From Mesaphorura yosii (lineage: Eukaryota; Arthropoda; Collembola; Poduromorpha; Tullbergiidae): a stretch of 64,000 bases of DNA. This document shows positions 4,463-64,000 of the stretch, in pieces. The stretch is taken from NCBI GenBank assembly GCA_009869945.1, contig WIXG01000320.1, positions 1 to 64,000 on the forward strand, given 5' to 3'. Below the pieces are notes generated by a model. That model had not been told where the DNA came from and did not search any database. It saw only the letters and a list, made by a program, of their open reading frames with translations. Made by a program: the position numbers and the translations under genes. Every line of letters begins with the position of its first letter. Position 1 is the first letter of the stretch.

Positions 4463-4993
4463 TTTAAGCGTCTGCTTTGAATATAAGGAATAAGTATAAA
4501 TCTAGAGATGACGTAGAAGCACTTTCAATTTGATTACTGAATACTTTCTTTTTCTTAGGAATTATCTTTTATTCCCAAACCAATTCTAGATATCGGAAAT
4601 AATGAGAATGAATTTGCCTGAGAAATGGCAAAATCATTTCACCCAAGGTTTACTTATCCATTAAATCGATTTAAAAATCGGTTTTCTTCTCATATTTTCA
4701 ATATTTTATGAATTAATTTAATCAAAGTGAAAGTCTTCATTGCTTGCCCTGAATTCCGAATACAAAATTAACGAAATTACAAGTTAAATAATTTTCACGA
4801 TTAAATTGCTTTCTAATTTCATTGATAAATTCTGCATGTCGACCGTTTGTAGCATTGTGAGTTATTTCTATGGACAGTTATTATTTGATGAGATCTGACC
4901 CATGACAATGACTGCTTTCTTTGAACGAATTCAAGAAAAAAATTTTTATTGTCAACGTTTATGACTTTAATTGCGAGCTTATCCAAAAAGGGT
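4463..4993. other. Intergenic between receptor genes
   Basis: AT-rich, no coding signal beyond a short frame without motifs. It should contain the promoter of the minus-strand receptor, but no clear TATA or initiator was found. Confidence 0.4.
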
Positions 4994-5242
4994 TTATGCC
5001 CCAAGTGGATATGCTTTTAGTACGAAGATGGTCTTGTCTATAATTACATCCCACGTACTATTCGGTATGTTGAAGTTAAAGAGAATCCCATCGAGCGTAA
5101 AGTTCTGAATTTTCTTCTCAAACGCTCCCATAACCAGGCGTCTCTTGATATTTGACCTTGAACAAGTATTTGCATAATACCTCATCAAATCATCGAGATC
5201 TTGTTTCGTTTCAGATTCACGATCTATGGCATGTAGAAAGTA
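4994..5242 (-). pseudogene. C-terminal stump of a gustatory receptor
   Basis: An open frame begins after an acceptor-like cctcttag at 5243-5250 and runs to a stop at 4994. Its end (STWDVIIDKTIFVLKAYPLG) matches the last helix of the receptor at 3160-4462 (YWDAVADKTIFLLNAHPLD). It would correspond to only the last exon: no upstream exons with membrane segments exist before the next gene at 5803. It is therefore a partial duplicate or the remains of a deleted gene. The frame carries no internal stop, so decay may be recent. Confidence 0.55.
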
Positions 5243-5802
5243 CTAAGAGGTAGGCTGTAGTGTGGTTTTGAAGTAGAGACTTGGCTTTCTATTTTGGGGA
5301 ACAAGCCAGGAGATGCTAGGACAGCTTTGCCTGGTAGGTCGTGTCTTCCTACTCTCAAATTCCCTTCAATGACCAGCCAATAATTCTAATTTGGAATCTC
5401 TCCTTTTTTGAGCAGTAACCTCAAGGAGTATTGACCATAGTGGAGATTGCGTACTCATTTGCGCCCGACCCATCCTTGCTCACAATTAGCCATATGTGTT
5501 CCTAAGGATTTTATCTAGCTTTGAAACGCCATAGTCGGCGTTCCGAAACAAGTTACCAGCCTATTTAACGGTTAATAATTGGAAGTGCTTTCGAAGAAAA
5601 ATCCATTTGTAACCAAAATTCATGGGACTTTCATGAAATGCGACCGCACGCGCTTTACATTATTCATTTTATGAAAAACACTCTAAATAAATAAGTTGTA
5701 AGAAGAACGAGAGTGATTGAAGGAATTATTCCAACAGTTTTACAGTTGCCGCAGTGCGACAAATTCGTACAACCAAGCAAGTAAGAAAAATCATAAGCAA
5801 AC
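5243..5802. other. Intergenic, no gene seen
   Basis: No receptor exon could be found that would complete the stump on its left. The right end holds the 5' region of the plus-strand receptor. Confidence 0.4.
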
Positions 5803-7118
5803 ATGTTTGAACACGAAATCTTTATCCAACTTGAGAAATTTTATCACTACAACCGTATCAGTAGTATTTGTCCATTCCGGTTCGTAGCCAATGAACGACG
5901 TGCTCTGGTCATCCATTCAAAACGCTTCTATTATCATTTCATTTTCAATCGTACTCTTGGTTTGGTTATGTTTGTCCTTTTCTCTTGGTCAACATGGGCA
6001 GGGTTTGGAATTCTGACCGCTGGCGGCTACATTAGGATCCCTTTTCTTATCTTTTTGACAATGATAAGTGTATTCTATCCCTGCATTATACTTTTGGATC
6101 ATATCAATTGGGAATGTCGTCAAGACCTTGTCTCAGCCTTCAATTCATTCATTGTCATGGCGGATCAGATTGATAAGAGCACTATCGTCAGAACCAAAAC
6201 GGAAGAAGAAAGGCGACGAGATGACCTCATCTGCTTAGCATTAGCCCGTCTTTTACAATTTATGTACTATAGCTGTGGACCAGCCTCCATTGTCGTTGGT
6301 TTCTTGTGGATCTTTTACATTGACTCTTGGGTAATTGTCACTACTGAATTAACAATTGAAACCCTTCACCTTCCACTTTGGTCATCGACTGTAGGAACCG
6401 TACTACTAATCATGGGCTACATGTACTCTGCCATTGGACTCATTCATCGTCTATACATTTTGATCTCTATCTCAGCAATTTTCTTTTGGTACACTTCAGA
6501 CATTGTACGAAACAAGATCAGGTAAGATTATCAAAAGTCAAAACTGTTAGTATTTGAGCCTCTTTGACTTGATTATTATCATTTTGCGGCAGTTTGGTCG
6601 AAAATTGGGAAACCCTGCCTCAACCCAACAATGCAATCCAAATCTACAAAACTCTGTACTTGCTCTGCAAAATTATGCTGGATAGTTACTCTTACTTTGC
6701 AACGTACCTTTTAGCCATGATGTCCTTCATTATTTTGCCATGTGGTCTGCATTTCGGCCTAAGCTATTCTCATGGACCAATACCAGAACGTCTACTTGTT
6801 GTAATTCAATTTACAATTTACGCTGTATATTTAACAATTATTGTAGATATGTCTGGTATGTTTTATCTACGTAGTCAGGCATTGATTACGGATTGGAAGC
6901 ATTTGTACATTCCCCATCTTTATCTTCGCCGCCACCGGGAACGAAAACGGACGACAAACATGTATAAGATCGAGAAACGTGTTGTTCAAACACTGCTTCC
7001 AATTCGTATCCATGCTGCTTCAATTTACTTTTTAAATCAGCGTGCTGTGCTAAATTTCTGGAATGTGATTGTAAATCAGGCCATTACATTCGCATGCGCT
7101 TTTCCTTTTGTTGAGTGA
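5803..7118 (+). CDS. Gustatory-receptor-like 7TM chemoreceptor, 2 exons
   Basis: Exon 1 is 5803-6521 and exon 2 is 6593-7118, with a 71-base intron (GTAAGA...GCGGCAG). The exons sum to 1245 nt, or 414 residues, almost the same length as the receptor at 3160-4462. About seven hydrophobic helices are present and a charged stretch (KTEEERRRDD) forms an intracellular loop. The final helix, FWNVIVNQAITFACAFPFVE, aligns with the C-termini of the two neighbours. Predicted role: odour or taste-gated cation channel of the GR superfamily. It is oriented opposite to its neighbour, so the cluster arose by inverted rather than simple tandem duplication. The intron lies at a different place from that of the neighbour, which argues for old divergence. 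Confidence 0.7.
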
Positions 7119-18852: not shown

Positions 18853-19563
18853 CTATGTGATTGTGATATCAGCGCAGTTGAGAATAGTTTCTTGTGGTCC
18901 ACAGCCCATGTCGCCTGGGGGGTTGGGGCAGACGCAGATCCCATCGCATTCTCCCCAATCCTTGCTTGTTCTGTGGTACAGTCGAAGTACGCAGTGTTGG
19001 CAGCTCAGGTCTGCTGGAAGCGTGGCCGTGAACGTGACGGTTCCGGAAGCCGGGACCTGCTTTCCAGGTCCACCGTTCAAATCCAGGAACCCTCTACGTT
19101 GGAAGCAGGCCTCGGATTCATCGGTGACATCGTCGCAAATCTGAACGGAGACGTACCCGCCGTGGATCGCGCCTTCGTACCTCATTGGGATGGTCTGCCG
19201 CATAAATTCGTAATTAATTAATTAATTTGACTCACGCACTAATTAATAATTAGTAATCAATTTAATAACCTGTCCTCTTGTGTAGGTACCAACAATGATT
19301 CCCTTTCCATACTCGCCTCCGTTCTCGTTCGGGCGAGGAGCCGGAAGACTGGCGGAGTCCCCGCACGTCCCGCACTGGTGTGGAACGTACTCCTGGCGAA
19401 TTCCATCGCACCAGAGCCCGCCGTCGTTGTAGTTTGGCACAGGGTTCAGGTGAGCGAAGCGTGGGTCCCTCCAGACAGAAGATCTTTGCGGGGGCTCCAT
19501 CAGGGTACCGTGCCCGCTGATACCAATAATGGCGAAGGAAAGAAGTGCGAGGAAGGCAAACAT
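18853..19563 (-). CDS. AA15-type lytic polysaccharide monooxygenase, 2 exons
   Basis: Exon 1 is 19563-19270 and exon 2 is 19194-18853, with a 75-base intron; both exons are whole numbers of codons and give 211 residues. A 17-residue signal peptide ends just before His18 (HGTLMEPPQRSSVWR), which becomes the N-terminal copper ligand. The second ligand is His109 in GAIHGGYVSVQIC. Near the C-terminus, SKDWGECDG and GCGPQETILNCADITI match the conserved end of AA15 enzymes, and many paired cysteines are present. AA15 enzymes oxidatively cut crystalline chitin or cellulose in arthropods, in moulting or digestion. The gene has a good TATA box and initiator upstream. Family call firm; substrate cannot be told from sequence. 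Confidence 0.9.
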
Positions 19564-19608
19564 TTTAAATGTCGACGGTGTTTAATTGCTCAGGGAAATT
19601 GAAGCGAT

Positions 19609-21038: not shown

Positions 21039-21998
21039 TTTTCTTAATGCGAATCTGAACGAGAACGGAACGGTGCCTTACTGGAAATCGAAATCCTTCT
21101 GCTGGTAGTCGACTGCAGCAGGATAAAAGAATGCAGGTAAGTTTTAAACAATAAACACTTCAACTTGAATGCTTGTCATCAAAGTGGCTGTGGCGTGTTT
21201 GCTTCATGATTTTATCTCAATCACGTGTCGCTTGTGTGGTCTGGAAAATACCAACGCATCACTCATAATCATCCTCATCTCGTCCTCATCGTCAATCACC
21301 TTCTAGTCTGAATTCTAAATTCATGAATTGCGATTGATTGAAGGAATTGAAAGTCCAAACTCACGCCCGCGCCCATTCGATAGAGCGGGAAATTTGAATT
21401 TTACGATAGATTCTTGCCTCGCTTCGGCTTCTGAATTCGTAAAACAATTTACGAACCAACGAATAACAAATTAAATATTTATTCGGCGAGCAGCACGAAA
21501 CGCGAAGAGCGGAGTTGAAAATTCTCACTGCAGCAGATTTGGAAACAAAACAAATATTCAAGTGCACCTGTGCACGAAAGCCAACGAAATACGAAATGTT
21601 TAGTTTTTAATGGCACTGCCTCTCCTTTTCAGCAAATTGGCAACTCGGCGATTTCACGCGTGCACGTGCGGGAATTGCTCACTTGCCAATCAATGCATAA
21701 TGCATAACTAAGGTAATGAATTTCACCGCTAAAAAATTGCTGATTCGTCCGGTGTGGCTAATACCAGGATTTCCGCAATTAAATATGTGTTAAAAATATA
21801 AGAATATAAATTAAATACTCGAGAGTGTTGAAAGACTTCACACTTTAAATTATTGAGGGCGAATGACAGTTTTCTCGCTCTCAGAAATTTCACGGCTTAC
21901 CAATTTAGAATTCAAAAAATTCAGAATACAGTTCCAACTCGGCCAGCTTACAGCGTGCGAAGTAAAGAATTTTCAAGGGTTGCCATCACAAAATCAAA
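21039..21998. other. Intergenic, no gene seen
   Basis: Carries the 5' flank of the ML gene and of the broken receptor to the right. No further motif recognised. Confidence 0.4.
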
Positions 21999-23184
21999 AT
22001 GTGTTCCAGTCAGTCCATGCAGTTGCTGAAGCTCGTGAACAATCTTTCGTACCATCTTTACTTGATTCCATCCTGGCTAGTAACGGACGACAATGACTGT
22101 AGCAGCTGCGGAATGCGTGCCAGGTTCGAATACTGCAGCCAGCGCCGGGAGCGTTTGTGCAACCTGCACATTTTGTACCACATCGTTGCGAACGTAGGGT
22201 ATGTCTTTGGAGTCGGATTCTTCTACGACGTCACGCACGACTTCTCGCTGGAGGTCCATGCGCAGTTTTATTGCCTCTGCCTCATGATTCTTGTGACCCA
22301 AGTCATGGCCGGGTTCGCACTCATCTTTCCGAAGGAGCTGTACCAGGTGGAGCAGCTTCTCTATGGCTTCGCTGGAAAATTAAGTAAGTCCACGAGCAGC
22401 ATAGGCTGAACCCCGCAAGATTTGAGATTGACGCTCTTGCAGATGAATTCCACAAACTGAATCCCGATCGTCGGGACGGAATCGAGCCCGTTCTCACCGC
22501 CTTCATCGGAGCCATGCTCGGCTTCACCGTGGGCAGTTTCCCGCTCGCGTTCGCGCTCTTCTACTTTGAAATCCACGTCGGAGCCTTCTTCCACTCCGAC
22601 TCGCAGCTGTTCATGGCGTACTTCGCGGGCTGCTGCGCGGTCGAGGCGTTTTTCGGCTACCAGGTCTCTTTTCACCTTGGAGGAATCTGCATTCTGTACG
22701 TGAACGTACAACGCCAGGGCCTGAGGCGCTAGCGGCCATGAGCCACAAGAAGCGAAACCGGTACATTCTTATGTATCGGGCTCACCAGCTCATGAGCAGC
22801 TGCTTTCTGGCCATGATGAAAAATCTCGTTGGTTTCATGCTCGTGCTTGGCGCCATGATTCAAATCTCAGCTTTCTACTTTGCCACCGCGCATTTCTCGA
22901 CGGCGTATACGCTCGTGACTATCTTGCTGGTCGTTGAGGGGCTCATCATCTTCGTCATCTACAGGCAACTCATCAAAATGTCGAGCCTCTCGGCGGAGTT
23001 TCCACGCTCGCATTTTCGCGTGGCTCGGCGTGCTGGCGTCACGGCCGCACAACACCGCGCCCTGGCGGCCTGCAGAGTCATCTACATGGAGACTGGGTCT
23101 TTCATGAAGGTTAAAAGGAGCACCTTCCCCAATTTCATGTGCAACGTCGTCCTCCAGCGCGTGGCGGATCTTTTGCTAATCTGA
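21999..23184 (+). pseudogene. Gustatory-receptor-like gene broken by a 19-base deletion (tandem copy 1)
   Basis: Exon 1 is 21999-22383 and exon 2 starts at 22443; the intron position and phase are identical to those of the intact copy at 23844-25098. The two proteins share long identical runs such as RRERLCNLHI, YDVTHD/YDLTHD, SLEVHAQFYCLCLM and RSTFPNFMCNV. After VNVQRQG at about 22717 the frame fails: compared with the partner, 19 bases are missing between GG and CCTGAGG, and a TAG follows at once. The sequence resumes in another frame (PEALAAMSHKKRNRYI...) and runs to 23184. One 19-base loss is the only clear disablement, so the copy died recently, or two partial products are made. Seven-helix chemoreceptor family. 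Confidence 0.8.
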
Positions 23185-23843
23185 ATTCCTAACACACGAG
23201 CTGGGGACCTTCGAAGGTCGAACAGTTAAATATTTCGTTGAAGTACCCAATTGCGAATGTCAAGAAACGCTCACTTCCCCCTTTCATGACCGAAAAGCAG
23301 GAAACAGCAACGCGAAACATGGAATTCTAATAATATTTTAATATTCTAAAGTTGCATTGGCACTTGCAATTATTGATATGATTAATGAGTGAATAGAATA
23401 TTTCAGGTCTGAATGGCATGATCTTCCGACATTGGCACGATATGGAAAAATTTCCAAGCGTGCGGTTCATACATAAAATATTTCCTATACATTTGGCGCG
23501 ATTGAAATATTAACTTTTCACGCGTCACTGCCTTTTCCATTGCCATTGCCATTTTCCTTGAGTTTTGCTTATCGCGTGTCGTGTCAGAATTTTCAATCAA
23601 TAATTAATTCGGTCGGGACGATACAATTTTACGGTCGAAAAGCCGCAGTTCGATCGCTTACGTCAACTTTGGCGGAATCCAACAAGATAAGACTTAACTA
23701 ACTTATAATTTTCCAGGCTCTCAGACATTTTTCTCCTATTTTAAGATACTTTTCGCACCCATTTTCTGCTCAGAATTCAGTTGAACCTCGGCGAATTTGC
23801 AATCTGGCAAGTGTTTTACGAAGCGCCCAGCAAAATCGGCAAA
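23185..23843. other. Spacer between tandem receptor copies
   Basis: AT-rich with no coding signal; contains the 5' flank of the intact tandem copy. Confidence 0.4.
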
Positions 23844-25098
23844 ATGTGTTCCCGTAAATCGTTGATACTCCTGAAGCTCGTGAATAATGTGTCCTATCAG
23901 GCCTGCCTGATTCCTTTCCGAATCGTAACCGACAAAGACGCCAACGGTGGCATGAACCCCAGGCTGGAGTACTGCGGCCAGCGTCGGGAGCGCCTTTGCA
24001 ACCTGCACATTTCATATCACATCGCAGTAAACGTGTGTTTATTCTTTGGAATCGGAGGCTTCTACGACCTGACACACGACTACTCGCTGGAGGTCCATGC
24101 GCAGTTCTACTGCCTCTGCCTCATGCTTCTCTTGTCGCAGGTCATGGCCGTGTTCGCGCTTGCTTATGCGAAGGAGCTGTACCAGACCGAACGGCTGCTC
24201 TATGGCTTCGCAGGCAAGTTGAGTAAGTGCGCGAACACGAACACTGGTCGGAGACCACCAAATTTGAAATTAACACATGCTTGTTTTTGCTTTTCGTGCA
24301 GATGAATTTCACAACTTCAGCCCCGACCGTCGGGACGGAGTCGAAGGGATTCTTGGCGCCTTCTTCGGAGTCATACTCGGGGCCACGATCGGGACTTTTC
24401 CGGTGGCTTTTGGCCTCTTCTACATGAAAGTTCACATGGGAGACTTCTTCCACTCCGAGTCGCGACTGTTTATGGCCTGCATCGCAGGCTGCTGCGTGGT
24501 CGAGGCGTTCTTTGGCTACCAGGTCGGTTTCCACCTCGGAGGCATTTGCATCCTGTACGCGAACGTACACAGCCAAGGCCTTAGCGCGCTGCAGGCACCT
24601 GAGGTGCTGGCGGCCATGCACGGCAGGAAACGGGATCGATTTATTCTCTTGTATCGAGCTCATCACGTGCTGAACAACTACTTTCTGTGTACAATGAAGA
24701 ACCTGGCTGGCTTCATGCTCGTCGTCGGCGGCATGATTCAAATCGTCACCTTCTACTTTGTCATCGCCTATTTTTCGACGGCGAACCCGCTCGTGACGGC
24801 CATCCTCGCTGGGGTGGGTTTCATCATGTACGTCGTTTACAGGCAGCTGATTAAAACGTCGAGCAGAGTGGCGATCTTGTCGGAAGAGTTTCCTCTGTCG
24901 CACATGCGAAATGCAAACGGCCGGAGCTGGTGTGACGAGCCTGCGCCCACGCCCGCCCAACGCCGCGCACTGAAGGCCTGCAGAGTCATCCACGTGGAGA
25001 GCGGATCCTTCCTGAAGATTAAAAGGAGCACCTTCCCCAATTTCATGTGTAACGTCATCCTCCAGCGCGTCGCCGATTTGTTGCTGATTGAACATTAG
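23844..25098 (+). CDS. Gustatory-receptor-like 7TM chemoreceptor (tandem copy 2, intact)
   Basis: Exon 1 is 23844-24222 and exon 2 is 24302-25098, with a 79-base intron (GTAAGT...TTTTCGTGCAG) and matching phase; the protein has 391 residues. Seven hydrophobic segments are visible, for example GFMLVVGGMIQIVTFYFVIA and the pair before YRQLIKTSS. The C-terminus (FPNFMCNVILQRVADLLLIEH) occupies the place of the GR TYhhhhhQF helix but does not match it. Predicted ligand-gated channel in sensory neurons. It is the working member of a tandem pair whose first copy carries a deletion. An AATAAA polyadenylation signal follows at about 25127. The family is judged from length, topology and context rather than a strict motif. 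Confidence 0.7.
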
Positions 25099-26503: not shown

Positions 26504-27491
26504 TCAAAATTGCCACCGGTAAGCCCGAACGTAGTCGATCTCGAACGTTGGTTTTTCCCACCGGTCCGCTTCAATCGGGTCGAATGGCTCTCCACCAAAG
26601 AAATTGCCCCCAACCGCCAAATTGAGAATAATGAAAAAGTTTCGGTCGAAGGGCTGCGTGTTTCCAGTGTAAAGTCCAGGCCAGAAATTGCGGAGGAGGT
26701 TTTCTTCATGGACGACTTGATTGTCGAGCATCCAAATCATCTTCTGGGAGCTCCAGTCGATGCTGTAAGTGTGCCACTCCTGCGAAAAGTCGTTAGGGAA
26801 CTCCCGCCCGTAGCCGACCTGGCCTTTGTTGTCCCAGCTCGGCCCGTAGTGCAGAGTGCCGAGAATCTCCCACCAGCGCTGGCCCCTGTATTCCATGATG
26901 TCAATTTCTCCGGAGCGTGGCCAGCCCCCGTATGCAGACGCGGACGGCATCATCCAAATGGCAGGCCACAAATGCTTGCCCTTCGGAGCCCGGGCTCGAA
27001 TATCAAATTTACCATATAGCCAATTGGCTTTCGTCGTCATGCGCGCTGACGTGAAGGGCTTGTCGGGGTTCACACCGTCACCTGCGCCAAGGTCCAGGAC
27101 AAAACATAGGAATTAGGCGACTCCCCACGCCCAAGGATAGGACCAAGGATTGGCTTCGACTTACCCCACCATTCACGCCTGGCGGTGATGACCAGAACTC
27201 CGTTCTCTTGGCGGGCATTTTCACCGCGGTTATTCGTGTAGCACTGAAGCTCGTTGTTCCCCCAACCTAAACAAAACCAAGGTAATCTAAGGATTATTCA
27301 CCAAAGACGTCAATATTTAAAGCGCGCTCGACTCTCACTGTGCGCGTTCACTCACCACTGCAGCCGAGCTCAAAGTTCCACCGATCTGCCAGATTGCCAC
27401 CGTCGAACTCATCGGACCATTCCAGCACCCAGTCGGCCTGTATGGAGCCGATCACGCCACAAAGGGCTACGGCAAGGAGAATCGCTCGCAT
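26504..27491 (-). CDS. Secreted GH16 beta-1,3-glucanase-like enzyme, 3 exons
   Basis: The exons are 27491-27356, 27266-27165 and 27081-26504; introns of 89 and 83 bases are GT/AG and in phase. The product has 271 residues. A signal peptide (AILLAVALCGVIGSIQA) precedes the GH16 jelly-roll, which starts WVLEWSDEFDGG and NNELQCYTNN. The catalytic block GEIDIMEYRG is complete (Glu138, Asp140, Glu143), and the conserved strand FIILNLAVGGNFFGG is near the end. With both glutamates present it should hydrolyse beta-1,3 or mixed beta-glucans, such as fungal or algal walls, unlike the inactive GNBP recognition proteins. Its spliced structure shows it is a resident gene even if the family came from microbes. 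A TATA box lies about 65 bases upstream of the ATG. Confidence 0.9.
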
Positions 27492-42039: not shown

Positions 42040-42492
42040 TTTTATTTCATTGTTTGCACGTGTCACCGTTTTTTAAGTACTATTGAAAATAATTAAAGTG
42101 GAATTTTTTAATCGCTGTCGTCGCGTTTGACATCAATCCGTCGAATTTGAATTCTGTCAATGACAATGATGATATGATAATGAGCGTGGAAAATTGGACC
42201 CATTATCAGGTCAGCATTTAAGTGGAAATTTGGCATTTGTGCGAATATTTTTGCGACATTTGATTGTCAAAGCTGTCTGGACTGAAATTATTTCTGTCAC
42301 CTTCCACAATAATTAAGATGCTTAATTTGTGAAATTACTCGTTTAAGAAATAAACAGTGGAAAATTACAACCAATTCGACCGGGTAAATTATCCAATTTT
42401 ATTATCACCAATGAGATGATTAACGGGCAGGGACCGAAATTCTGGGCAAATCAGCAGTAGTTTGCGGCTGCTCCGGTCGGAAACAAGCCAAG
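42040..42492. other. Intergenic, no gene seen
   Basis: AT-rich 5' flank of the receptor gene to the right. Confidence 0.35.
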
Positions 42493-43617
42493 ATGCTTTC
42501 TCCACAAGAATTGATCATCGTCTGCCACTACGTCCGCTTCGCGGGCAAGTACCTGCCCATGGGGCTGGAATTTGACGAGAAAACCCGGCGCCTTCGAGTC
42601 CGGGCAGGACTCTGGGCCGAAGCGGCTTACTTCGGATATCTGGGGCTCGCAACCTACACCACAGCGTACGCCCTGCGTCGAGTACAGATTCTTACAGCTG
42701 ACTCCGACTTCCGAATCGAGTTGCTGGTCCTGTACTTGATCGTGCTTGCGACCCTCATCCCTTGCTTTCTGGCCCAGTGCGTGTTTGCTATCTGGAGATC
42801 AGAACTGGTGTCACTTTTCAATCTTCTCGTCGAACAGAACCAGAAATCAGGGGAAGGTTCGGGAGGAGCACCTGCAGGAGGGTCTCGTGAGAAACTACTC
42901 GGCTACGCCCACAGGGGATTCACGCTCATGGCATTCTGCGGCTGCATCCCTTCCTTCTGCGTAATTGAATTCCTGTACGCATGGACCACCCCTGATCATG
43001 GAGGAGGCCCTCTGCTCGCCATTCTGAATGCCATGGCAACATTTGTCCACCTCTGCTGCTGCTACATGATTGGCGGTCACTTGCAGATCCTTCCCTTTAC
43101 CTTCTTCGCCCTCGTCAGTGACACCCTTCAACTACAGTGCGATTGGAGCCGTGGACAAACGAGTGTGACCAACTTTCGCTCGCTCTGCATCATCTCGACT
43201 ATCTTCAACCGCTCCTACTGTCTCGTGGTGGTCCCTATCGTCAAGTTTGTGGTCAGCTTCATGGTCATGGCATGCATCGTCGGAGCAATTCGACTACCGA
43301 GCGGAGACATCACAAGCGCGCTCCTCAGCATCGGAATCCTGGCACTTGGCCTCTACTACGCGATCGCTCTCGTGATGGCAGCGAATGTGACCAGCAGCCT
43401 CTGGGCAAAATCTAGCGCCCAAATCTGGAATCTGCGACACCGCCCGGGGTGCCAAGTGACACCAGAATGTTCAAAGTATGTGGGGCTGGTGGCGGAGTCA
43501 ATGGTCCCGATTCGGTTTGGAGTGGGAGGGCTTTACCATATGGAGAGGGAGGCGAAGATGACCTTCCTCCATTTCTTGCTTCATGGCACCCTCACAATGC
43601 TCATCGCATTCCATTAA
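42493..43617 (+). CDS. Gustatory-receptor-like 7TM chemoreceptor, single exon
   Basis: A 374-residue frame, intronless. Seven or so hydrophobic segments are visible (for example AAYFGYLGLATYTTAYAL, LLVLYLIVLATLIPCFLAQC, FVVSFMVMACIVGAI, LSIGILALGLYYAIALVMAA). Between helices 6 and 7 is a charged loop, and at the end MVPIRFGVGGLYHMER then MTFLHFLLHGTLTMLIAFH. The PIRFGxGGLYxxxR block before the last helix and the FLxxxLxxxTMLI helix follow the insect GR/OR plan, though the TYhhhhhQF motif is absent. It likely acts as a sensory ligand-gated cation channel. The lack of introns contrasts with the receptors at 3-7 kb and 22-25 kb and points to a different subfamily. Confidence 0.7.
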   Translation: MLSPQELIIVCHYVRFAGKYLPMGLEFDEKTRRLRVRAGLWAEAAYFGYLGLATYTTAYALRRVQILTADSDFRIELLVLYLIVLATLIPCFLAQCVFAIWRSELVSLFNLLVEQNQKSGEGSGGAPAGGSREKLLGYAHRGFTLMAFCGCIPSFCVIEFLYAWTTPDHGGGPLLAILNAMATFVHLCCCYMIGGHLQILPFTFFALVSDTLQLQCDWSRGQTSVTNFRSLCIISTIFNRSYCLVVVPIVKFVVSFMVMACIVGAIRLPSGDITSALLSIGILALGLYYAIALVMAANVTSSLWAKSSAQIWNLRHRPGCQVTPECSKYVGLVAESMVPIRFGVGGLYHMEREAKMTFLHFLLHGTLTMLIAFH

Positions 43618-45510: not shown

Positions 45511-46755
45511 TCATACCGCAAACTGGAATTGAATGATGACGACATTGTATGTGATGACAGTCGCGAGCGCCTGCACGAGCATCGGCTTGTTTAGCTTGAA
45601 GAAACCGCACCCAGTCAGCTGCAGCTTCATTTCATCGTTGCCGCCAAGGACGATGCGATGCAATCTCGCCAGCGTCGTCGCGGGCGCGGCCACTCCGCCG
45701 GCAATTTCCGTATCCGCTGTCCCCGCGTTAAAAGTCGACACCGTCTGCCTGAACCTACGAGCCGCAGCCCGCAGTTTGTCGCCGCCCGACACGAGCAGCC
45801 ACATTTTGACGCACGTGAGGAGCATCAGCGTGGGAAACGTGACCTTGTAGACGCCATCGAATGGGAGAACAAAAAGGGATGCGACGACAAACGCCTGGAC
45901 GGTGAGCAGAAGAACGAAGGTGGCTGTGAGCGCCACGATTCCGGACCCGGACGCCCGCTGCAAGGCGAGAAAGGCGGCTCTGAGGTGAAGTGTCTCTGCG
46001 TAAACGTCCTGTACGTGGACGCGTTTTTCATCTTTTCCTGTTTGGTCAGCGAGGTCTAGAGCGCGTGTGAGCTCCTCCAGTCGCCTGGTCACGATTCCAG
46101 CCATGTGTGTGGTGCAGTTGCTTGTGAGGATTTCGGCCAGCGTGGAAATCAAGTTATGGACAGCCATGAAAAAGGATAACTGCCCGATTCCGAGTCCACC
46201 GTATTTCATGAGCCAAGAGATCTCAGAAAACTCACGGAGGTAAAGTGCATTTTGACGCGGGCGCTTGGGGCCCGGCCCAAGCGCCGTTGCACTGAGGCCG
46301 ACGGTGCTGACCAGGGCGAAAGGAGCCCAGATGAGGAGGAAAGAGAGCACCAACCGGGCAATGAAAAGAAGGCGCCGACTTTCGTTTCGATTTCGACGCG
46401 CGCACACCCGAGCGCTGTCAAGACGCTTCAATTCTCCAAACGCATGTGCGAATCTGCCCGCAGTCCACAGCCAATTCAGGTACACACCGTATTTTGAAAG
46501 GAGGGCGAGGACTCCGAGGAGATTCGAAAGTCGACCGGCGAAGAATTTTGCAAAATGGGCCCACCAAACGAAGAGCGAAGCGAACATGGACTGGGCACAG
46601 ACGACATGGAGCAGAAGCATGAAAAGTGCCCAGGCTCGGCTGGCAGGCCCCGTTGGGAATTGTCCAAGGATTTTCGCGACGGAAAACAGAAATTTCAAAT
46701 ACCTGAAATGAACTTCCATCTTGGGAAACCTTCGACTTCTTGGAGCCAATGCCAA
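45511..46755 (-). CDS. Gustatory receptor with canonical C-terminal motif, single exon
   Basis: A 414-residue intronless frame with seven hydrophobic segments. The last helix reads ALATVITYNVVIIQFQFAV, containing TYNVVIIQF, a textbook GR signature (TYhhhhhQF); just before it lies GCGFFKLNKPMLVQ, the equivalent of the conserved F-x-l-x-xxxl segment. This makes it the clearest GR in the window. Translation may begin at the second Met (MEVHFRYLKF), 12 codons in, which starts at a typical receptor N-terminus. Predicted taste or odour-gated cation channel in the dendrite membrane. It is transcribed toward the F-box-like copy H and away from hemocyanin. Confidence 0.85.
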   Translation of the reverse strand: MALAPRSRRFPKMEVHFRYLKFLFSVAKILGQFPTGPASRAWALFMLLLHVVCAQSMFASLFVWWAHFAKFFAGRLSNLLGVLALLSKYGVYLNWLWTAGRFAHAFGELKRLDSARVCARRNRNESRRLLFIARLVLSFLLIWAPFALVSTVGLSATALGPGPKRPRQNALYLREFSEISWLMKYGGLGIGQLSFFMAVHNLISTLAEILTSNCTTHMAGIVTRRLEELTRALDLADQTGKDEKRVHVQDVYAETLHLRAAFLALQRASGSGIVALTATFVLLLTVQAFVVASLFVLPFDGVYKVTFPTLMLLTCVKMWLLVSGGDKLRAAARRFRQTVSTFNAGTADTEIAGGVAAPATTLARLHRIVLGGNDEMKLQLTGCGFFKLNKPMLVQALATVITYNVVIIQFQFAV

Positions 46756-47825
46756 AATGATTAATTGAGTGATTCACTCTAGTTAAAGACGTTAAAATGT
46801 TGATAAATTGGCAGGTGGGTTTTCTCAGAAATGAGTGGCAATTGCGAATTTCCCATTAATGAGTTCACAAGTATTTACAAATAATTCAAAGGTGGCCATT
46901 AATTGAATGACAATTAATTAAAATTCAACCTTCCACTTTGCTACATTGCTAATTTGCTAATTGTCACAAGAAAAGAATGTGATCGAGTAAATGTCTATCA
47001 AAGATCAAATAATGCAATAAAGTTATGCAATTCGAAAGGGTCAAATGGGCAAATGACGAATCAATTAGCTAATTTGTTCCAGAGTTTTTGCATTGTGTTT
47101 TGACTCCGAACTTCAGCCGAACCGCCTACGTGACCCGAACCTAATGAGTAATAAACTGAGTGCAAAATTCAATTTTAAATACAAAAATACATAAGTAAGA
47201 ACACATTAGTCATTCGTAAATTTTCCATCTTGTTTTGAAATGACTATGACTAGTTTCATTTTTGCGATGCGACAATGTGAATGTTTAAAAATGTAGGTTT
47301 TCTAGGTGATTTGTCTTGTTTTTTTTCTGTTTTCAGGCTGACGCGTACCCGACAGCAAAGAGCAGAATCATGAAGAGGCCCTTCACTCTTCACGAAATGA
47401 CTAACCAGATATAAACACTTATACTTTTGCCTACGCGTGAGAGACACGTTTTAATTTTTTCACGCCACAAAGTGGGCTGTCGAGGGCCACCGCCGCAAAT
47501 GGCAAATGACATCAGTCTTTAATGTCACTCGGTTCTCGAAATACTCTGAAAAATATGAACTCACCCGAATAATTCGTCAAGTGGCAACCGGCGCGGCGCA
47601 GATAAACAATTGATTTGCGCACCGACCGCAAATTCCGAACCGTTCCCGTGTTCGTTCACGAGAGACGAGAGGTTTGTCTCCACCATGCCCCCGACTTGCC
47701 TTCTTGGTTGGAGAGGCCATGGCCAGCTACTGATTACTCACGACTGACATGAATCAATGTCAGGTGCAAATAATATTGATTATTGACTATTGCGACAAGT
47801 CACGTAGGCACAACCACCGGGGTGA
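46756..47825. other. Intergenic, no gene seen
   Basis: About 1.1 kb of AT-rich DNA upstream of hemocyanin and of the minus-strand receptor. No gene recognised. Confidence 0.4.
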
Positions 47826-47899: not shown

Positions 47900-50494
47900 A
47901 TGGCCAGAAGCCTCCTACTTTTCACCCTCGCCAGTCTGGTCCTGGCGCTCGCTGTCCACGCCAAGACGGGTTCCCAAGAGATTTTGAGCATCAAAAAGCA
48001 GTATTTGAACCTATTCAAGCCCACCACCACTCCCGTATCCGCCTCTTCCGCCGCCAATTTTCAAATCGACACGGCGAAAATCACGAAACTTATCCTTCGC
48101 GACTCGCTTTTCGGCTCGATGATCCCGAAACATCGACAGGCCGTGCAAGAAATCGTCAACATTTTGAAAGGTGCGTCTTCCCCCTTTCCTGTTTGCTAAA
48201 ATGAAAAAAAGTGAGTTGATTCATGGCCATTTCCGACTTTCCTTGCAGGTCAGCCAACGATTGAAAGGGCGCTCGAGGCGGCCGAATGGCTCAAAAACAG
48301 ACCCGAGATCAACCTGAAGGCGTGGTACTACGCTGTCACTGGCTGGTCACTCACTGACTCCAGATTGCGGGCGGCTCCGAAGCCCAGCCCATTTGAAGTG
48401 ATGCCGGACAGGTTCATCCACGCCGAGGCGCTCGAGAAGGTGGAAGAAATTCGACAGATGAGGAAGAAAGCAGCCAGTGCGAAGCTCAACGTCAACGCTG
48501 ACGTATGTTGTTGAATGGTGAAAATAATGTCTTGTAAAGCTCCTTAATTTGAAGTTATTTGTGTGATGCAGGAATGCGTTGTGATTGACCCCGAAGCTGG
48601 CGCCGACAACGGTCGAGAGCACGCACTGTGGTATCTGCGGGAAGATTTGATGCACAATGCCTTTCACTACTTCTACCATATTTACTACTACAACCACATC
48701 GAGACTAAACCAGATAGGCGCTCCGAGACTTTCTACTTCCTGCATCGTGACATTATTGCCAGGTAACGACAAGATTGTGAATGCGAAATTTTGCGAATAT
48801 TGGATCCTGGGACTAGTTTTAATACAATTTCTGGTTCGACTTTGAAGGTACGACGCTGACCGAATTTCAAACCGCCTGCCCCGCACCAAATCTTTGACTT
48901 GGGGACCCGGAAGCCTGATTGAGGAGCCGTTCTATCCGCATATAAATGACAGTATGGCCGGAGGAGCGTGGGGAGGTCGAGACGCAAATGTGCTACTGCC
49001 GGTAAGCCAGCGGTCGCGGAAGGTTCAAATCGAAGATCAGCTGCTTTTACTTTGACCGCAATGCCATTTCAGGACATCGATTTTTTTAACCTACAAGCTA
49101 CAATCGCCGATATCGTCCAAGTGGAGCGTAGAATCTACGAAGCAATCAACTCGGGGTTCCTCCGACTCCGAGACGGTTCACTCCTCCCACTGAATAACAG
49201 AGACGGAGTTGAAGTCCTGGGCGATATCATCGAAGGCAACGAATTCAGTCTAAATCCGGATTACTACCAAATCGGAATGGAGATCCATGGCGCCATTCAC
49301 GTGGCCATCGGCGTGGCAGAGCGACCAGCGAATGAGCCGCAGAACCCTGCTGGCGTCATGCTAGATATTGCAGTCTCCTTCAGAGACCCGACCTTCTACA
49401 GATGGCATCTGTACCTCAATGACCTCTTCGACGCGAATAAACAACGCCTCCGGCCATACACGCCGACAGGCGGCGAGCTTCCTCTCGTTTGGAACGGCGT
49501 GACTGTCACCGACGTCGGCGTGCAGCAGCAGGCCGGGGGGCAGCCCACAAATCAGCTCTTCACTTTCTTTGGAGAACGCCGCTTCGAGTTGAGCAGAGGA
49601 CTCGACAACCTCGGTGACTTCTTTGAGGAGCCAGTCGACGTCTGCGCTAAGCATTTGGACCACGAAGACTTCGTGTACAGGATCGTCGTGAACAGCGACA
49701 ATTTCTTCACACGCACAGCCACTGTGCGGCTCTTTTTGGTGCCGAGGGGTGACGAAAGTGATGTTCGATTCAGCATGCGCGAACAACGCGACCTGATTTT
49801 CACGCTGGACGTGTTTCAGGCGACTCGTAAGTGATGGGCGCTTATTTTGGGATTGGTGACAATTTCAAATTTCAAAAAAAGGAATTGATTTGATTTTGAT
49901 TTTCGCGCCATTTCAGTGCAACCGGGAGAAAACGTAATCTACCGGGCATCCAACGTGTCCGTGGCGACGACTCCCTGGCAGGCAACCGTCGACGAGCTTG
50001 ACAATGGAAACGAGACGACCACCGCCTGCGGCTGTGGTCTGCCCCTCCACCTGCAAATTCCCAAAGGCCGTCCAGAAGGGATGACGTTTGATTTGGTTGC
50101 GCTGGTCACCAATTTTGTGGATGACACCGTGGATTATGAAGAACCCGAATGCAGGGCGGGGTACCTGTATTGTGGACTGCCCGGCACAAAGTATCCTGAC
50201 GCCAAGCCGATGGGGTACCCATTCGATAGACTGCCTTATCAGGTTGATGGTGAGTGAATACATACGCAATCGACAATTTTCAGCAGGAAAAGGCAAGGAG
50301 AAAGGCGATTGCGACTGAGGTAATCTGTAATTTCGATATTTTTTCCAGAGAATGGTAACCCAATCGAATCAGGAGGCAGGCAAGTTCGTGATTTGGATGA
50401 ATACATTGCTCACGTCCCGAACATGGCCACTCGCCAGATTACAATCACACACTTGGGTGATCGAACAGGCAGAAATGTGAGCGCGAGGAAATGA
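47900..50494 (+). CDS. Hemocyanin subunit, 7 exons
   Basis: The exons are 47900-48170, 48249-48502, 48572-48762, 48848-49001, 49073-49826, 49917-50249 and 50349-50494, all GT/AG and in phase; 700 residues. The signal peptide (LLLFTLASLVLALAVHA) marks secretion and separates it from prophenoloxidase. Copper A ligands are His207 and His211 (FHYFYH) and His233 (FLHRDIIARYDADRISN). Copper B ligands are His362 and His366 (IHGAIH) and His402 (FRDPTFYRWH). The C-terminal immunoglobulin-like domain is intact, with GLPLHLQIPKGRPEGMTFDL and YPDAKPMGYPFDR. It carries oxygen in haemolymph, assembling as hexamers. The first six-histidine set is complete, so oxygen binding is expected. Hemocyanin is present in springtails but lost in many insects, which supports the host guess. 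Confidence 0.95.
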
Positions 50495-51438: not shown

Positions 51439-53471
51439 TCATGCATGCACTTCGCCGTCTTTTTCACTACTCCGCGCCCGCGCCGACGCGTTTACGGCGT
51501 CTCCGCCCACACCCGTGCCTAGTCGCTGGTTGAGTGCGTGCACTTCGGAGGCGCTGAGGCTCGAGCGGCGGCGTGCGACGACGTTCTCAATGTTCGTCAC
51601 TTTCTCAAACATCTCCTCGTCCTTCGTCTCGGGGAGGAGGAACCCCACGAGAGCCGCCACGACGGCGGTGACTCCGATGATAACTACGGACATCTCCTCG
51701 TAACTAAACTTGGCGCGTACGACGTAAGGAGCGGTGATTGACCCAATTCTGCCGAATAACACGGCGAGGCCAAGACCAGTCGAGCGAGCTATTAAGACAA
51801 GACGCCAGACTCTGCGTTATTTAAGGCTAAAACTTTAAGCTAGCTGCTTGGCTTGGATTTAACTTACCTTCTGTGGGGTATAGCTCTGCCGCAAGCAGAA
51901 TGATGATGGCCGAGCAGCCAGACACAAAGAGTTTGGCCACCATCGCCAGCGTAATTCGAAGTGCTCCCAGTTCTGCGCATTAACAAATGAATCAGTTAAG
52001 CTAAGCTGAGATCGAGCCCTCCAAGCGCCAAAAACTTAAAACTAACCGAACGGAACGAAGACAACGGCGAGGTACGCCAGCCCCGCGACGAGGAATGTCG
52101 TGATCGTCGTCGGTTTCCGGCCCCAGAAGGAGACGAGAGGAATGGAGCCCAAGTACCCGGGGATTTCCATGAGACCGCCAAGGAATACGATGAGGAACGG
52201 GTCGGAGCTCAGCGACGGGGACCCGAAGCTCACGCCGTAGTAGCTGAAGGACATGGTCATGTACAAGAACCAAATCAGGAAGGAACGTCTCCTCAACTCG
52301 GGCGTCCGAACAAGATTGGCGTAGCTGGACAGAAATTTCTTGAACCCCATCCAAGGGCTGCTTAGCAACGGCGCCGTGACCACGCCCGCGGGCACTTCCG
52401 GCACCGGCTCGCAGGATTCGTCCAGGATCGACTTGAGCTCGGTTCTGCTGGGCGGTGGACGCCGGTTGCGTCTTGCGATGCCTTCAAGTATGTCGAGGGC
52501 CTCTTCTTCCCGGCCATTTTGCGCCAGCCAACGTGAAGACTCAGGAAGAATCCAATAATACACGATAAGGGAAAGGGAGGAGATGGCAAATGCAAACTGG
52601 AGTGTGGGCCAGTCGCGGATGAGGTAGGCGTAGAGGGGTAGGAGCATGTAAAAGAGGGCGAAGGCCACCTGCGTGATGATCCCCAGCACGGCCCGGCAGC
52701 GGGTGTCGGAATACTCCATCAGAATCGTGAAGCAGTTCTGGTTGGAGCCTGCCACCCCAATCGCGATGACGAACCGACAGAGGACGAAGACCCAGTACGA
52801 AGGCGCGAAGGACGTCGCGAACCCAAACACGATGATGATCACGAAGCAGAGGAGCGAGGTCCGCCTTCGTCCGAGGATCTTGTCCGACACCGCGCCGAGG
52901 AGGAGCGACCCCGTGAAAATGCCCGCCATGTACGTGGCCTGGATCGTGGCGACGAGGTGCTTGCGGCTGCAGACGAGGTTGAACTGCGTGACGGTCGTGG
53001 AATGATACGTGGAATTGTCGTACACCCAGCCAGCACTGCTGCACTCCTTGGTGGTCACGTTGGAGTAGTCGATGCGGGCAAGGGCGTCCTCGTAGCGGGA
53101 AGACTGACGGAGGATACGTGCGTAGTCGAGATCGTAGTACTCACATTCGGCACCGGACGGGATGGAGAGATTCTTTATCTGGGCGGGAGTCCACGAGGAG
53201 TTGGCGAGCTCAGGAACGGCGCACCAGTGAGCGGGCGATGCGCCGAGGAAGATGTAGCCGATGTGGTGGAAGACGAGGACGCCTCGCTGTAGCGAAATAT
53301 CAAAGTGTTAGCTTTCTCGAAGCGATAGTATCAATAATTGCTTAATAATGCAATTTATTCACTGACCTGGAAGGATACGATGAGTAGGAGAACCCACTGG
53401 TAGAGGTGGTGTCCCCCGATGAGGGGGAAGACCCGGTCGAAGCCCTCAAATTGCTTCTCGGCGCCAGTCAT
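51439..53471 (-). CDS. SLC22-family organic ion transporter, 4 exons
   Basis: The exons are 53471-53367, 53286-52047, 51972-51868 and 51809-51439, GT/AG and in phase; 606 residues. The protein has the SLC22 plan: first helix (LYQWVLLLIVSF), a large extracellular loop with cysteines and three N-glycosylation sites (NSS, NLS, NVT), then 11 more helices. Signature blocks are AVSDKILGRRRTSLL (major-facilitator loop 2-3 motif), RFVIAIGVAG, ILPESSRWLAQNGREEEA, SFWGRKPTT and AAELYPTE. It is a plasma-membrane uniporter or exchanger for organic cations, carnitine or anions; arthropod members sit in gut and Malpighian tissue. The last junction uses an AG two codons inside the run TCTGG; an alternative acceptor is nearby. 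Substrate unknown. Confidence 0.9.
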
Positions 53472-54305: not shown

Positions 54306-56599
54306 TTATTGGCACTCTGCAGGCAAGTCGAATGCCTCCTCACCGTTCCAATCTTCAAACCATTCTTGTTCCCCGCCTCTCGCGCTGAAGCCAACTCCCC
54401 GCTTTGCAAATCCTCGCCAGAGGGCGCACTTGTGCCAGCCGCCGTAGTCCAGCTCGTCCGCCTGGAGAATGGCGTCACGAGCCTGGACGAAGGTCGGGTC
54501 GCACGGCTGCAGCTTCATGCCGTCAAGCACCAGCTGAATGAAGACGGTGTTGCCCGCCGGTGAGCGGTTGTTAAACCAATCGCTCTCGAATCCATACTCG
54601 TCGACCAGATTCCAGTAGACTTCGTATAGAATCACGGCCCAGACTTCGCCGACGGCGTGGACCGAATAAAAGTAGTCGGTCCGGGCCAGCAACGCGTACG
54701 TCGACGGGTTCGTCGTCATGTTGGTCGAGTAGACGTATCGTCGAATGCCCACGTCGTCCCCCGTCGCGTACCCGCCCATGTTGAAGTTGTCGTCGCGAGT
54801 GGAGGTCGCCGTTGTCCGGGTCACTGTTGCAATGATGTCACTCCAGCCTTCGCCCATGCCGCCTGCCTCCCCAAAGCCCAAGCAGCCAACGTTTGTCGGC
54901 CCTTGCGTGAGGCGAATCGAAAGACCGTGCGTGTATTCGTGAAACTGCAGTGCAGCAGACATTCAAAGAACAAAGAACAAAGGATTCTGAGTTGAGCCGA
55001 GCTGAGCTGAGCTGACCGTGGGGGAAATTTAAATTGAAAGCTTGACTAATGACTTACCACAATTCCTCCGTCCAAGTCACCGTCTCTCCGTGGGCTGCCA
55101 GTCCAAAGGTACATTCGCATCACGCCTCGCTGCCCGTCGGGCAGAGTCAGGAAGTTGGCATTGTTGAAGCCGCCTCCGTCCTGAGCAAACGTCACGACTG
55201 GATCGTTGCCTTGCCCGCCGTTGTTGCCGTTGTTGTGCTGGAAGTTTCCGGAGGTCTCGTCGAAGCCGTACACGTCTGGAAATTAAAGACGTCCAAATAT
55301 TATCCAGGTCAGGTAATTTAAAAGCAAGAGAGCAGCCTACAGTATAAATCGTGAGCCGTATTGCTCCAGTAAAACAAGTTGGTGATCGCCGCGTCTTTGT
55401 AGTCGAGGGGGTCTAGCTCCAGATCGAGTGGGAAGTCAAAGTTTAGCGCCTGGCCAGCATCTGGTCGGTATTGATTCTCGTAGTCGGAACCCGAACCTGT
55501 GTCATAGTCGTAACCAGATAGTGAATCACAATACCTTCTTGAACGGGGCATCACAAGAATACTTGGAAATTCAAATTACTTGGATTATCTTGGCTGTGTA
55601 CATTATTTCCTTGAGTGTCCGTGAAATTACGCCCAAGAATTCCTTGGCTGTGCCATCCGAAGGGAGACGCGACGGGGTGCGACGGATCTTCAAGCAGTTG
55701 GCGGTCTCCGCTGACCGGATCGTTGATTCCAAGTGGGAAAACGTTGTACGTGGCCAAATCCGAAACAAGATCGTGCAGGGACAGGATTTCTCCGGTCTCG
55801 GCGTCCACGACGACATCGTAAAAGTTGTCGGAGCCCTTCATGTCTACAAGGAGCTCATAACCGAGGCGAACTGAGCGTCCGGAGTTAGTCTGGATGTACT
55901 TCAAGTCTGCAGTGATGGCGTTGGCGGCGAAGGAGGCCCCGGAGATGGAGAATGAAGGAGCCCCATTGACTTTGGCGACTGGAGAAGGCTGAAGGCCTGA
56001 TGCCTGGAAGGATTCTTGGCCTAGGAAGTTGGCAAAGGCCGCCACGGCGTCGGTTGGGGACAATTTCATCGCGAAACCTGAAAGAAAAGTCAAGGGCCAA
56101 AGTCAAGGATGCATTTTTCCAAGGATAATCCGCTACACTCTCGCCTACCAGCAGCTGGGGGTGGGACAGCCGCCGCTCCTTTGAAGAAAGAGTTGCCTGC
56201 CGAGACCACGCGATGCCCTTCGTCCACGTTGACGTTGGCTACTCCGTTGATGACGTCCAGGCCGTGCAGAGTCTGCTGCAGGTAGACGTGGGTCACGCCA
56301 TTGCGCTTGTTCACGTGCGAGCTGGCTACGTAGATGGACTCAGCGGGCAGCGGCTGGAAGCCCGATTCGAGTCTCGCGTGTTGTCTGGCGATCTGGATCG
56401 GGTCGGTGGTCATGGCTTCCAGGCTGGAGGAGTCAAGAAGCTGAGCGGGGCGCGTGGAGTACGTTCGTTGGACAGAAGGGCCGAAGTTTCGATGGGTGAC
56501 TCTGGGCGATGCCTGACGTGGGGCGGGAGCAGATGCGGGCGCCGCGGAGGCAAGCCCGATGGCGGCGGCGGCGAGAAGGACAAGTGAAATTGACTTCAT
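54306..56599 (-). CDS. Secreted M36 (fungalysin) metallopeptidase, 5 exons
   Basis: The exons are 56599-56149, 56077-55563, 55476-55341, 55275-55058 and 54944-54306, total 652 residues, the usual fungalysin length. The junction between exons 2 and 3 is the least certain, since the phase-correct acceptor (gactacgag) is weak. After a signal peptide ([15 protein letters not shown]) comes an FTP-type propeptide ([20 protein letters not shown]). The M36 catalytic domain follows: [36 protein letters not shown], the zinc motif HEYTH (His442, His446, catalytic Glu443) and the third ligand Glu472 in GEGWSDI. M36 is best known from fungi and some bacteria, where it is a broad secreted protease cleaving collagen, keratin and elastin. 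All key residues are present. Four introns and a signal peptide show an expressed eukaryotic gene, probably after horizontal transfer. Confidence 0.88.
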
Positions 56600-57039: not shown

Positions 57040-57690
57040 AGAATGTGACCAGAAACCCCAAAGTTACGATGCCCGGCACTTTGCCGGAAAGTCTGGTGGT
57101 AGAATTCGTGTGAGGCACTCGGTTCACTGAAATCGCAGTCACGGGCTCCGCTGCCCCCAGCAGGCGGATGGTGCTCAGGACTTTGGTCGCCATGCCCGCT
57201 TATCCGTCATGAACCACGGTGACCGTCAGCTTCCAACCAGAAGCGGTGTAGTCGGCCTTGGAGTAAGCTCCATTCTCAACCGAATCTGTGGCTCAACACA
57301 AAAATGTTGCCGTTCAATATTATTAGGAGATGGGTTCAGTTTTCTTACCCCTGGGGTCCCCACCGACAAAGTAGAGCGTCCCAGCCGCCGTCCCGCGCCA
57401 CAATCAGGCCAAACGGATAGTTGCGTGACAGTCGCGTATTGACGGCCGGCTTCTGCATTAGGATGACGTTGCCCCCATAAATGTGGACGGGAAGAAGTTC
57501 AGCCGGCGCCGCAAGCGTCTCGTACCCGCCCCATCGTAGTAGCTGTAGAAGCGGGCGTTTGCGTTTAAGAAGTAGGCTCGGATTGTGATGGCTCCCTGCG
57601 TCAGCGCGGGTGAAATGAGGATGCCTGATCCCTTACAGGAACTGCCTGTCCGTGCCCGCTGCTGACAGGTCGCCTGGGAGTTCGTTGATT
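57040..57690 (-). pseudogene. GH31 alpha-glucosidase C-terminal remnant
   Basis: Minus-strand pieces in several frames line up with the end of GH31 glycosidases. GSGILISPALTQGAITIRAY and FLNANARFYSYYDG correspond to the LLISPVLxxGA...YFP...WYDYYTG region. A shifted frame gives YETLAAPAELLPVHIYGGNV, then NYPFGLIVARDGG. A third shift gives GTLYFVGGDP. Last comes GAYSKADYTASGWKLTVTVV, the C-terminal beta-domain. At least two frameshifts and a stop are present and the catalytic aspartates lie in the missing upstream part. It is therefore inactive. Confidence 0.7.
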
Positions 57691-62634: not shown

Positions 62635-64000
62635 TTAAGTAACCAGGATGGTCCTTTCCAAATCTCCGACTAGCAATCTCCAGGCTCCAGTCACAATTTG
62701 AAACTGCCCTGCCTCATCTGCCAATTCAAATTCATTTCGTCCCAAACAAATCTGTAGCAGTCGTGACTTATTCGGCGGGACGTTGAACACCTTGTCAAAC
62801 TCGTGCAGTTTCTTGATTATCCGACCGCCTTGACCCGCGCCCGGTGGCTCGAGGAACCAGAGCACAGAATGATCACCGGCTCGTTGTCCAGCGTTGCGAA
62901 CACTGACCTGGAAGCCTGCAAGGTCGCCACACCCCACGGGGTTATCCCCCCACGTGTACTGCCAGGTCGTGTATGAGAGTCCGTAGCCGAAAGGGTACAC
63001 AGGCTCGCCCGTGTAGAATCTGTACGTACGTCCGGGGTTTCCGGGCCCTGGTCGCATGTACATGTTGTTCATGTCGACTTGATTAATGAAATCGCCGTCA
63101 TAAAATGTCTGCGTCAAACGTCCTGAGGGATTGTACGCACCAAACATTACGTCCGCCATTGCTGTACCCCCCGCCTGTCCCAAGTACCCCGCCCAGATGA
63201 TGGCGCCAACCCGAGGATCATTCTTCCACTCAGACAGGTCAACGGCGCCCCCAGAGACCACAAACATGATGACGGGCTCCGTCACGACCGCCAGCACGCG
63301 TCGAATTAGTTCGTCCTGACTCCCGACCAAACTGATGTTTTGCCGATCGCGACCCTCATCCTCCACGAATTTGTTGATGCCGACAAAGAGAACGACTTGC
63401 GCAGAGCTGCGCGCCATGTCTTCCGCTTGTTGTATCCGATTACATTCGAAGGGTGGCTGCCAGTTGCATCCAAATTCGTATTCAAGGTCAGGAACGTACC
63501 TCCCAATTTCCACGAGTGGTCGATGGATGTACGATGGATGACCGAAGTAATTACCGAGGAAGACATAGCTTGCGTTGGCGTATGGGCCGATGAGCGCCAT
63601 ACTCGCGTGCTTCGCCCTGAACTCAGAGGCGTCGATGGGAAGCGGTGCCCGCCCCGTCCTTGCATTGGGCGCATTCTTCAGGAGAACGATGCCCTGCCGG
63701 GCTGCGTCCAACGCCAACTGTTTGGACTGGTCAGTGTCGACCGATCCGGCCTGTAGCTCCTTGTACGGGCGCGTGGCCTCTTTCTCAAAGTACCCTGCCC
63801 GAAACATGACTTTGTACGAGTTGAACAGCGCCTTGTCCAGCTCTTCTACGGTGACCATCCCTTCGTCTAGTGCCTGCTGGAGGTATTGATGAATATAATT
63901 CTTGTTTTGACACGCGAGATCGATGCCTGAGTCGAGCACGATCCGCACGGCGTCAGCCTCGCTCGTCGCGTAGTGATGTTGGCTGTACAGGTTCCCTACC
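62635..64000 (-). CDS. GH3 beta-xylosidase/beta-glucosidase-like enzyme, 3' part
   Basis: The frame enters from the right edge (it is open to 64000) and ends at 62635, so about 455 C-terminal residues are visible and the N-terminal half with the catalytic SDW aspartate is outside. Conserved GH3 blocks of the plant/fungal beta-xylosidase type are present: HHYATSEADAVRIVLDSGID at the end of the TIM barrel, ARQGIVLLKN and ALIGPYAN opening the second domain, FVGINKFVEDEGRDRQNISL with the candidate acid/base region, WAGYLGQAGGTAMADVMFG, YNPSGRLTQTFY, YPFGYGLSYTTW, and a fibronectin-III-like C-terminal domain. It would remove terminal sugars from xylan or glucan oligosaccharides. No intron occurs in the visible part. 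GH3 enzymes of this class are rare in animals but known from plant-feeding arthropods. Confidence 0.88.
   Translation of the reverse strand, partial: VGNLYSQHHYATSEADAVRIVLDSGIDLACQNKNYIHQYLQQALDEGMVTVEELDKALFNSYKVMFRAGYFEKEATRPYKELQAGSVDTDQSKQLALDAARQGIVLLKNAPNARTGRAPLPIDASEFRAKHASMALIGPYANASYVFLGNYFGHPSYIHRPLVEIGRYVPDLEYEFGCNWQPPFECNRIQQAEDMARSSAQVVLFVGINKFVEDEGRDRQNISLVGSQDELIRRVLAVVTEPVIMFVVSGGAVDLSEWKNDPRVGAIIWAGYLGQAGGTAMADVMFGAYNPSGRLTQTFYDGDFINQVDMNNMYMRPGPGNPGRTYRFYTGEPVYPFGYGLSYTTWQYTWGDNPVGCGDLAGFQVSVRNAGQRAGDHSVLWFLEPPGAGQGGRIIKKLHEFDKVFNVPPNKSRLLQICLGRNEFELADEAGQFQIVTGAWRLLVGDLERTILVT

Follow-up and report, generated by a model that had tools for sequence, protein, structure and literature searches.

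The window analysed here, a stretch of 64,000 nucleotides from the springtail Mesaphorura yosii (contig WIXG01000320.1, positions 1 to 64,000), carries at 54306-56599 on the minus strand a complete five-exon M36 fungalysin gene of this species, read as one spliced frame of 653 amino acids. Exon 1 (56149..56599) encodes a signal-like N-terminus and the FTP propeptide motif, exon 2 (55580..56077) the remaining propeptide, with a weak PepSY resemblance, and the start of the mature domain at A259; exons 3 (55341..55496) and 4 (55058..55275) follow from the gene model, and exon 5 (54306..54944) encodes the zinc site from HEYTH to GEGWSD and the C-terminus, stop codon included. Between them lie intron 1 (56078..56148, 71 bp), intron 2 (55497..55579, 83 bp), intron 3 (55276..55340, 65 bp, phase 1, after HDLY) and intron 4 (54945..55057, 113 bp, just before FHEYTH), all on the minus strand. 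No intron length can be divided by three, which makes the frame dependent on splicing. The original prediction had placed a gene with four short introns at 54306..56599, and these coordinates proved exact, with GT-AG borders throughout. It had queried the join of exons 2 and 3, where the spliced 15-residue junction peptide lines up with its counterparts in relatives. Joins 3 and 4 likewise sit in well aligned stretches, and join 1 lies inside a poorly aligned propeptide linker.

Pfam identified the M36 domain (PF02128) at residues 260-629, covering profile positions 1-368 of 368 (499.5 bits, cut-off 23.3), and the FTP propeptide at residues 91-138 (45.8 bits, cut-off 21); chance is no issue at such scores. 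PepSY remained below its cut-off (20.6 vs 24). The mature domain aligns with solved fungalysins over residues 259-632 (7qfy, 382.8 bits), and because these structures align from residue 259, the mature enzyme is taken to start there. The prodomain chain 4k90_B also matches the protein (40.3 bits), and a signal-like N-terminus of 19 residues was recognised by eye in the translation. The zinc-site residues H443, E444 and H447 (HEYTH) and E473 are invariant across an alignment of eight sequences; together with the Pfam match to FTP, this bears out the propeptide and the complete HEYTH/GEGWSD site first read from the translation. The residue following GEGW is serine in the window protein, and among 141 fetched proteins possessing the motif it is serine in two and glycine in 139; this position is not known to be a ligand. 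Judged by these matches, the gene is a full-length member of peptidase family M36 (fungalysin).

The M36 gene is adjoined by an SLC22-type transporter exon (52042..53307, minus strand), whose best named match is a protein of the springtail Orchesella cincta (388 bits, 42% over 99%), followed by two unnamed proteins (300 and 296 bits) and then by Drosophila as the next named match (222 bits, 34%). This search scored only the candidates sharing most words, and Orchesella cincta is the sole named springtail among its 78 rows. A hemocyanin/phenoloxidase-like exon lies at 48950..49834 on the plus strand, and hemocyanin-family genes of such type are a hallmark of arthropods. The window also encodes a 7tm_7 chemoreceptor, a transglutaminase-core gene and a kelch gene according to Pfam, which gave matches to LDL-receptor-A and JHBP below their cut-offs. 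From this gene content, the contig is arthropod DNA and the M36 gene is borne by the animal, for which the transporter match points to a springtail or something close to one.

Several other features of the window were recorded. The clear 7tm_7 chemoreceptor occupies 45511-46773 (minus strand), and further frames at 3160-7118, 21966-25098 and 42424-43617 look like chemoreceptors by eye; Pfam gave no match for 3160-4038, 5797-6525 and 42424-43617. Just upstream of the M36 gene, a broken stretch with several in-frame stops (57050-57535, minus strand) is possibly a decayed gene, which by eye we take to resemble a GH31 alpha-glucosidase in its C-terminal part. A lytic polysaccharide monooxygenase-like gene at 18853-19581 (minus strand) consists of an LPMO_10 exon (18853-19221) and an exon without a Pfam match (19243-19581); with a GH16 glycoside hydrolase exon (26504-27112) and a GH3 C-terminal domain (62635-63999), both on the minus strand, the contig that carries the protease thus holds several polymer-degrading enzymes. 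Two overlapping frames at 469-1178 (plus strand) resemble by eye a decayed Tc1/mariner-type transposase, with no Pfam match.

A search of the genome (93.0 Mb in 1127 contigs, copy counts being lower bounds), in which COX1 gave no match, revealed at least two intact M36 copies and two relics beyond the window gene, spread over four contigs. The copy on contig C673 is intronless, encodes 636 amino acids and is 66% identical to the window copy; its neighbours are an SDR gene and an ORF whose 7tm_7 match stays under the cut-off. The copy on C824 encodes 625 amino acids, is about 50% identical to the window copy and has one 64-bp intron, and the stop reported in it by the genome search falls between its two exons; no neighbours were identified for it. 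The relic on C1003 is an M36 3' fragment, and the one on C771 is shorter and contains a stop codon. The locus on C1003 (629-919 and 1330-3641) places the M36 3' fragment beside a GH35 beta-galactosidase gene.

Intron 3 of the window gene and the sole intron of the C824 copy coincide in position and phase, and therefore, on the simplest reading, intron 3 would predate the split of the two copies. For the intronless C673 copy, the roughly 900 nt downstream of the stop codon contain no stretch of at least seven A; retroposition is unproven, and an A tail would have decayed at such age. Between the window and C673 copies, dN is 0.257 and dS 1.164 (dN/dS about 0.22, by a simple counting method with silent sites near saturation), which suggests purifying selection between these closest copies, and between the window and C824 copies the silent sites are saturated. 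The original description of the gene as old agrees with the 66% identity of the closest copies and their near-saturated silent sites.

These copies bear on whether fungal DNA became attached to an arthropod contig through contamination or misassembly. The named kin of the gene are fungal, and its introns, which the original prediction had used as an argument against contamination, have no power on their own against fungal contamination, because chytrid genes likewise have short GT-AG introns. The location of the gene in the animal genome is supported instead by the arthropod genes on the same assembled contig and by the intact copies and relics on other contigs, of which the intact copies group with the window gene in a single clade, and the earlier judgement that contamination is unlikely stands on that ground. 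The GC3 of the window gene (0.69) is like that of its neighbours, lying inside the range of 0.54-0.79 of nine other ORFs from the same genome. Codon usage correlates with that of other ORFs at only 0.31-0.80 for the window gene and only 0.17-0.59 for the C824 copy, and is less telling than GC3 on this question. Taken as a whole, we regard contamination as very unlikely.

The M36 database searches were each limited to 7997 scored candidates. In the top 120 of 4933 hits, the closest relative outside the genome is P0001 (58%), which is unnamed and lies on a short contig, and the best named relatives are chytrids at 47-49% identity. The fungalysins of Geranomyces, Spizellomyces, Powellomyces and Rhizophlyctis, genera of the orders Rhizophlyctidales and Spizellomycetales, share the FTP-M36 order and this level of identity over 95-100% of the query, and the zinc site is also conserved in Powellomyces, the one chytrid fungalysin aligned. 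Unlike the springtail copies, the fungalysins of these genera have an inserted loop of 32-46 residues, and they are longer (705-751 aa) than the window protein (653 aa). The solved fungalysins 4k90, 7qfy, 7z6t and 7qp3, all non-animal (4k90 from Aspergillus), match the window protein with lower scores than the chytrid relatives.

In a quick tree of 74 rows (71 of the 120 listed homologues plus the three genome copies), the genome copies grouped together (99); eight unnamed proteins and these copies made up a clade of 11 rows (99), which joined chytrids (93). The unnamed proteins, P0001, P0002, P0008, P0011, P0016, P0019, P0076 and P0113, come from contigs of 1.3-2.1 kb. A careful, bacteria-rooted tree of 57 rows, including 30 fungal rows hand-chosen from the lists and 16 bacterial rows from 80 loci kept by a scan, again recovered the genome copies as one clade (100/99) inside the 11-row clade (100/99), which joins Rhizophlyctis and Spizellomycetales (99/96); several forks within the chytrids are weak (such as 80/10). 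The 16 bacterial rows form one separate group (100/100), and a bacterial origin was rejected. A set of 78 rows, with two aphelid rows left out and 23 fungi added, gave a quick tree in which only the three genome copies, and not the 11-row clade, are a listed starred set. From this set C824, three partial rows, fifteen fungi deemed long-branched or near-duplicate and six bacteria were removed, and the realigned careful tree of the remaining 53 rows showed the same chytrid placement (99/92) with several supported forks inside the chytrids; the cut was made after the unhelpful 78-row test was seen, and may lean towards resolution. The placement was the same for the 53-row set minus bacteria (96/96). 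The 78-row and bacteria-free trees were interpreted from group tables and starred sets, not drawn.

These trees were weighed against vertical inheritance, by which M36 would go back to the common ancestor of fungi and animals and would survive in a few soil animals after being lost nearly everywhere else. The careful trees put the springtail set within chytrids, and fungi formed one group in 0% of 200 bootstrap trees for both the 57-row and the 53-row sets. Nevertheless, holding the fungi together without the springtail set is not rejected by AU tests, the cost being 8.5 log units with 57 rows (p = 0.291) and 16.7 log units with 53 rows (p = 0.0995), and in the 78-row quick tree the fungi-together arrangement even beat the free tree by 7 log units (p = 0.658). 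Holding only the chytrids together without the springtail set costs 36.6 log units in the 53-row set (p = 0.0604), 30.1 in the same set minus bacteria (p = 0.0598) and only 0.44 in the 78-row quick tree (p = 0.484). The nesting is thus supported at 96-99 bootstrap in the careful trees and contested at AU p of 0.06-0.29 on the same sets, and the chytrid origin is less firm than the support values suggest. The phylogeny to which the original prediction looked therefore speaks on both sides, with chytrid nesting in the careful trees and alternative placements that the AU tests do not reject. A broad animal M36 clade, which that prediction had set against its own reading, was sought in the listed hits: the top 120 of 4933 contained no named animal, and a second search, with a profile of the 11-row clade, likewise gave none in its top 120 of 5008. 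Vertical inheritance would moreover demand loss in nearly all animal lines, given the distribution of the family, and on this evidence it appears improbable.

The loop between DWFN and GN gives a further hint of a chytrid origin. It has at least 31 residues in all 21 scored named chytrid rows, 20 of which show a YRDFRTG-like motif by eye; many rows escaped the search pattern, including at least six named chytrids (P0014, P0033, P0045, P0047, P0072 and P0095), and the pattern mis-measured P0046. Within the 11-row clade, P0019 has a 31-residue insert at this place, and the other ten rows, springtail copies included, are without it. Loss of an ancestral insert in most of the clade fits this pattern, and a separate gain in P0019 is possible; the place is evidently prone to inserts, because glomeromycotan rows carry there a different one of 26-28 residues.

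The eight unnamed proteins bear on the identity of the donor. They may represent another soil eukaryote that served as donor, or a soil animal that was the first recipient, since the closest outside relative among the best 120 of 4933 hits, P0001, is one of these short-contig sequences, the springtail copies in the 57-row and 53-row trees group with the unnamed rows first and with named fungi only after them, and in the 53-row tree P0001 is the unnamed row nearest to the springtail genes (96/76, not starred). Uncultured chytrids or other springtails would fit unnamed contigs of 1.3-2.1 kb equally, and an arrangement in which five unnamed rows form a clade without the springtail genes was not rejected (p = 0.223, 53-row set minus bacteria). 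We consider a donor or first recipient of this kind unlikely. Transfer from a fungus is the most likely origin, and the donor can be narrowed, on these comparisons, to a chytrid-like fungus, with other placements formally remaining. Of the horizontal transfer originally proposed, the part that the gene is borne by the animal is upheld by the arthropod contig and the copies, and the transfer itself is the best reading of trees whose alternatives the AU tests leave unrejected. The gene would have entered an ancestor of the animal from a chytrid-like fungus and would then have been duplicated, with introns gained or lost in the animal genome.

Fungalysins are secreted as inactive precursors and activated by removal of the propeptide. 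By its sequence, the window protein is intact and apparently constrained, and its product would be made as a preproprotein, exported and held inactive by the propeptide (residues about 20-258) until release at A259 yields a mature enzyme of roughly 395 residues. This enzyme would bind one zinc through H443, H447 and E473 and, with E444 as base, cut proteins outside the cell, the roles of these four residues being assumed by analogy with solved fungalysins. Going by the domain plan, extracellular protein digestion is a plausible role, and the likely substrate would be dietary protein in the gut of an animal that feeds on fungi or detritus. A digestive role appears likeliest because the springtail Folsomia candida is described, in the main text of its genome paper, as a grazer with a preference for fungi (PMC5490193). 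Neither tissue nor substrate follows from the domain plan of such a secreted enzyme, and a different job, such as defence against fungi or microbes, or a part in moulting or in egg-shell turnover, would be compatible with any origin; we hold it to be possible but rather doubtful. Altogether, we think it reasonably probable that this is a working fungalysin gene of the springtail, taken from a chytrid-like fungus, duplicated, and serving as a secreted digestive protease.

Gene acquisition as such is already known in springtails: the main text of the genome paper on F. candida reports a total of 809 acquired genes, of which 87 have an arbuscular mycorrhizal fungus as the indicated source, and a set enriched in carbohydrate-active enzymes (PMC5490193). 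The case resembles ours in that the host is a springtail, linkage to native genes was tested, some sources are fungal, and the genes are thought to aid life in soil (PMC5490193). The words 'M36' and 'peptidase' are both missing from the main text of that paper (PMC5490193), and neither 'fungalysin' nor 'M36' occurs in the main texts of a compendium of metazoan transfers (PMC13342648) and of a 2026 paper on arthropod fusion genes (PMC13389597). Among the open-licence papers listed on the subject, no title or opening of an abstract describes M36 in an animal. We tentatively suggest that one chytrid transfer founded a secreted M36 family of many soil arthropods, in which the unnamed proteins would be transcripts of other springtails or of mites, the enzymes would belong to a toolkit for digesting fungi, and the gene may have spread between soil animals. 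A fungal-type secreted protease with three intact copies would extend the acquisitions of springtails to protein digestion and could be used to date a transfer from fungus to animal, and the copies with four, one and no introns in one genome would give a view of intron gain and loss after transfer.
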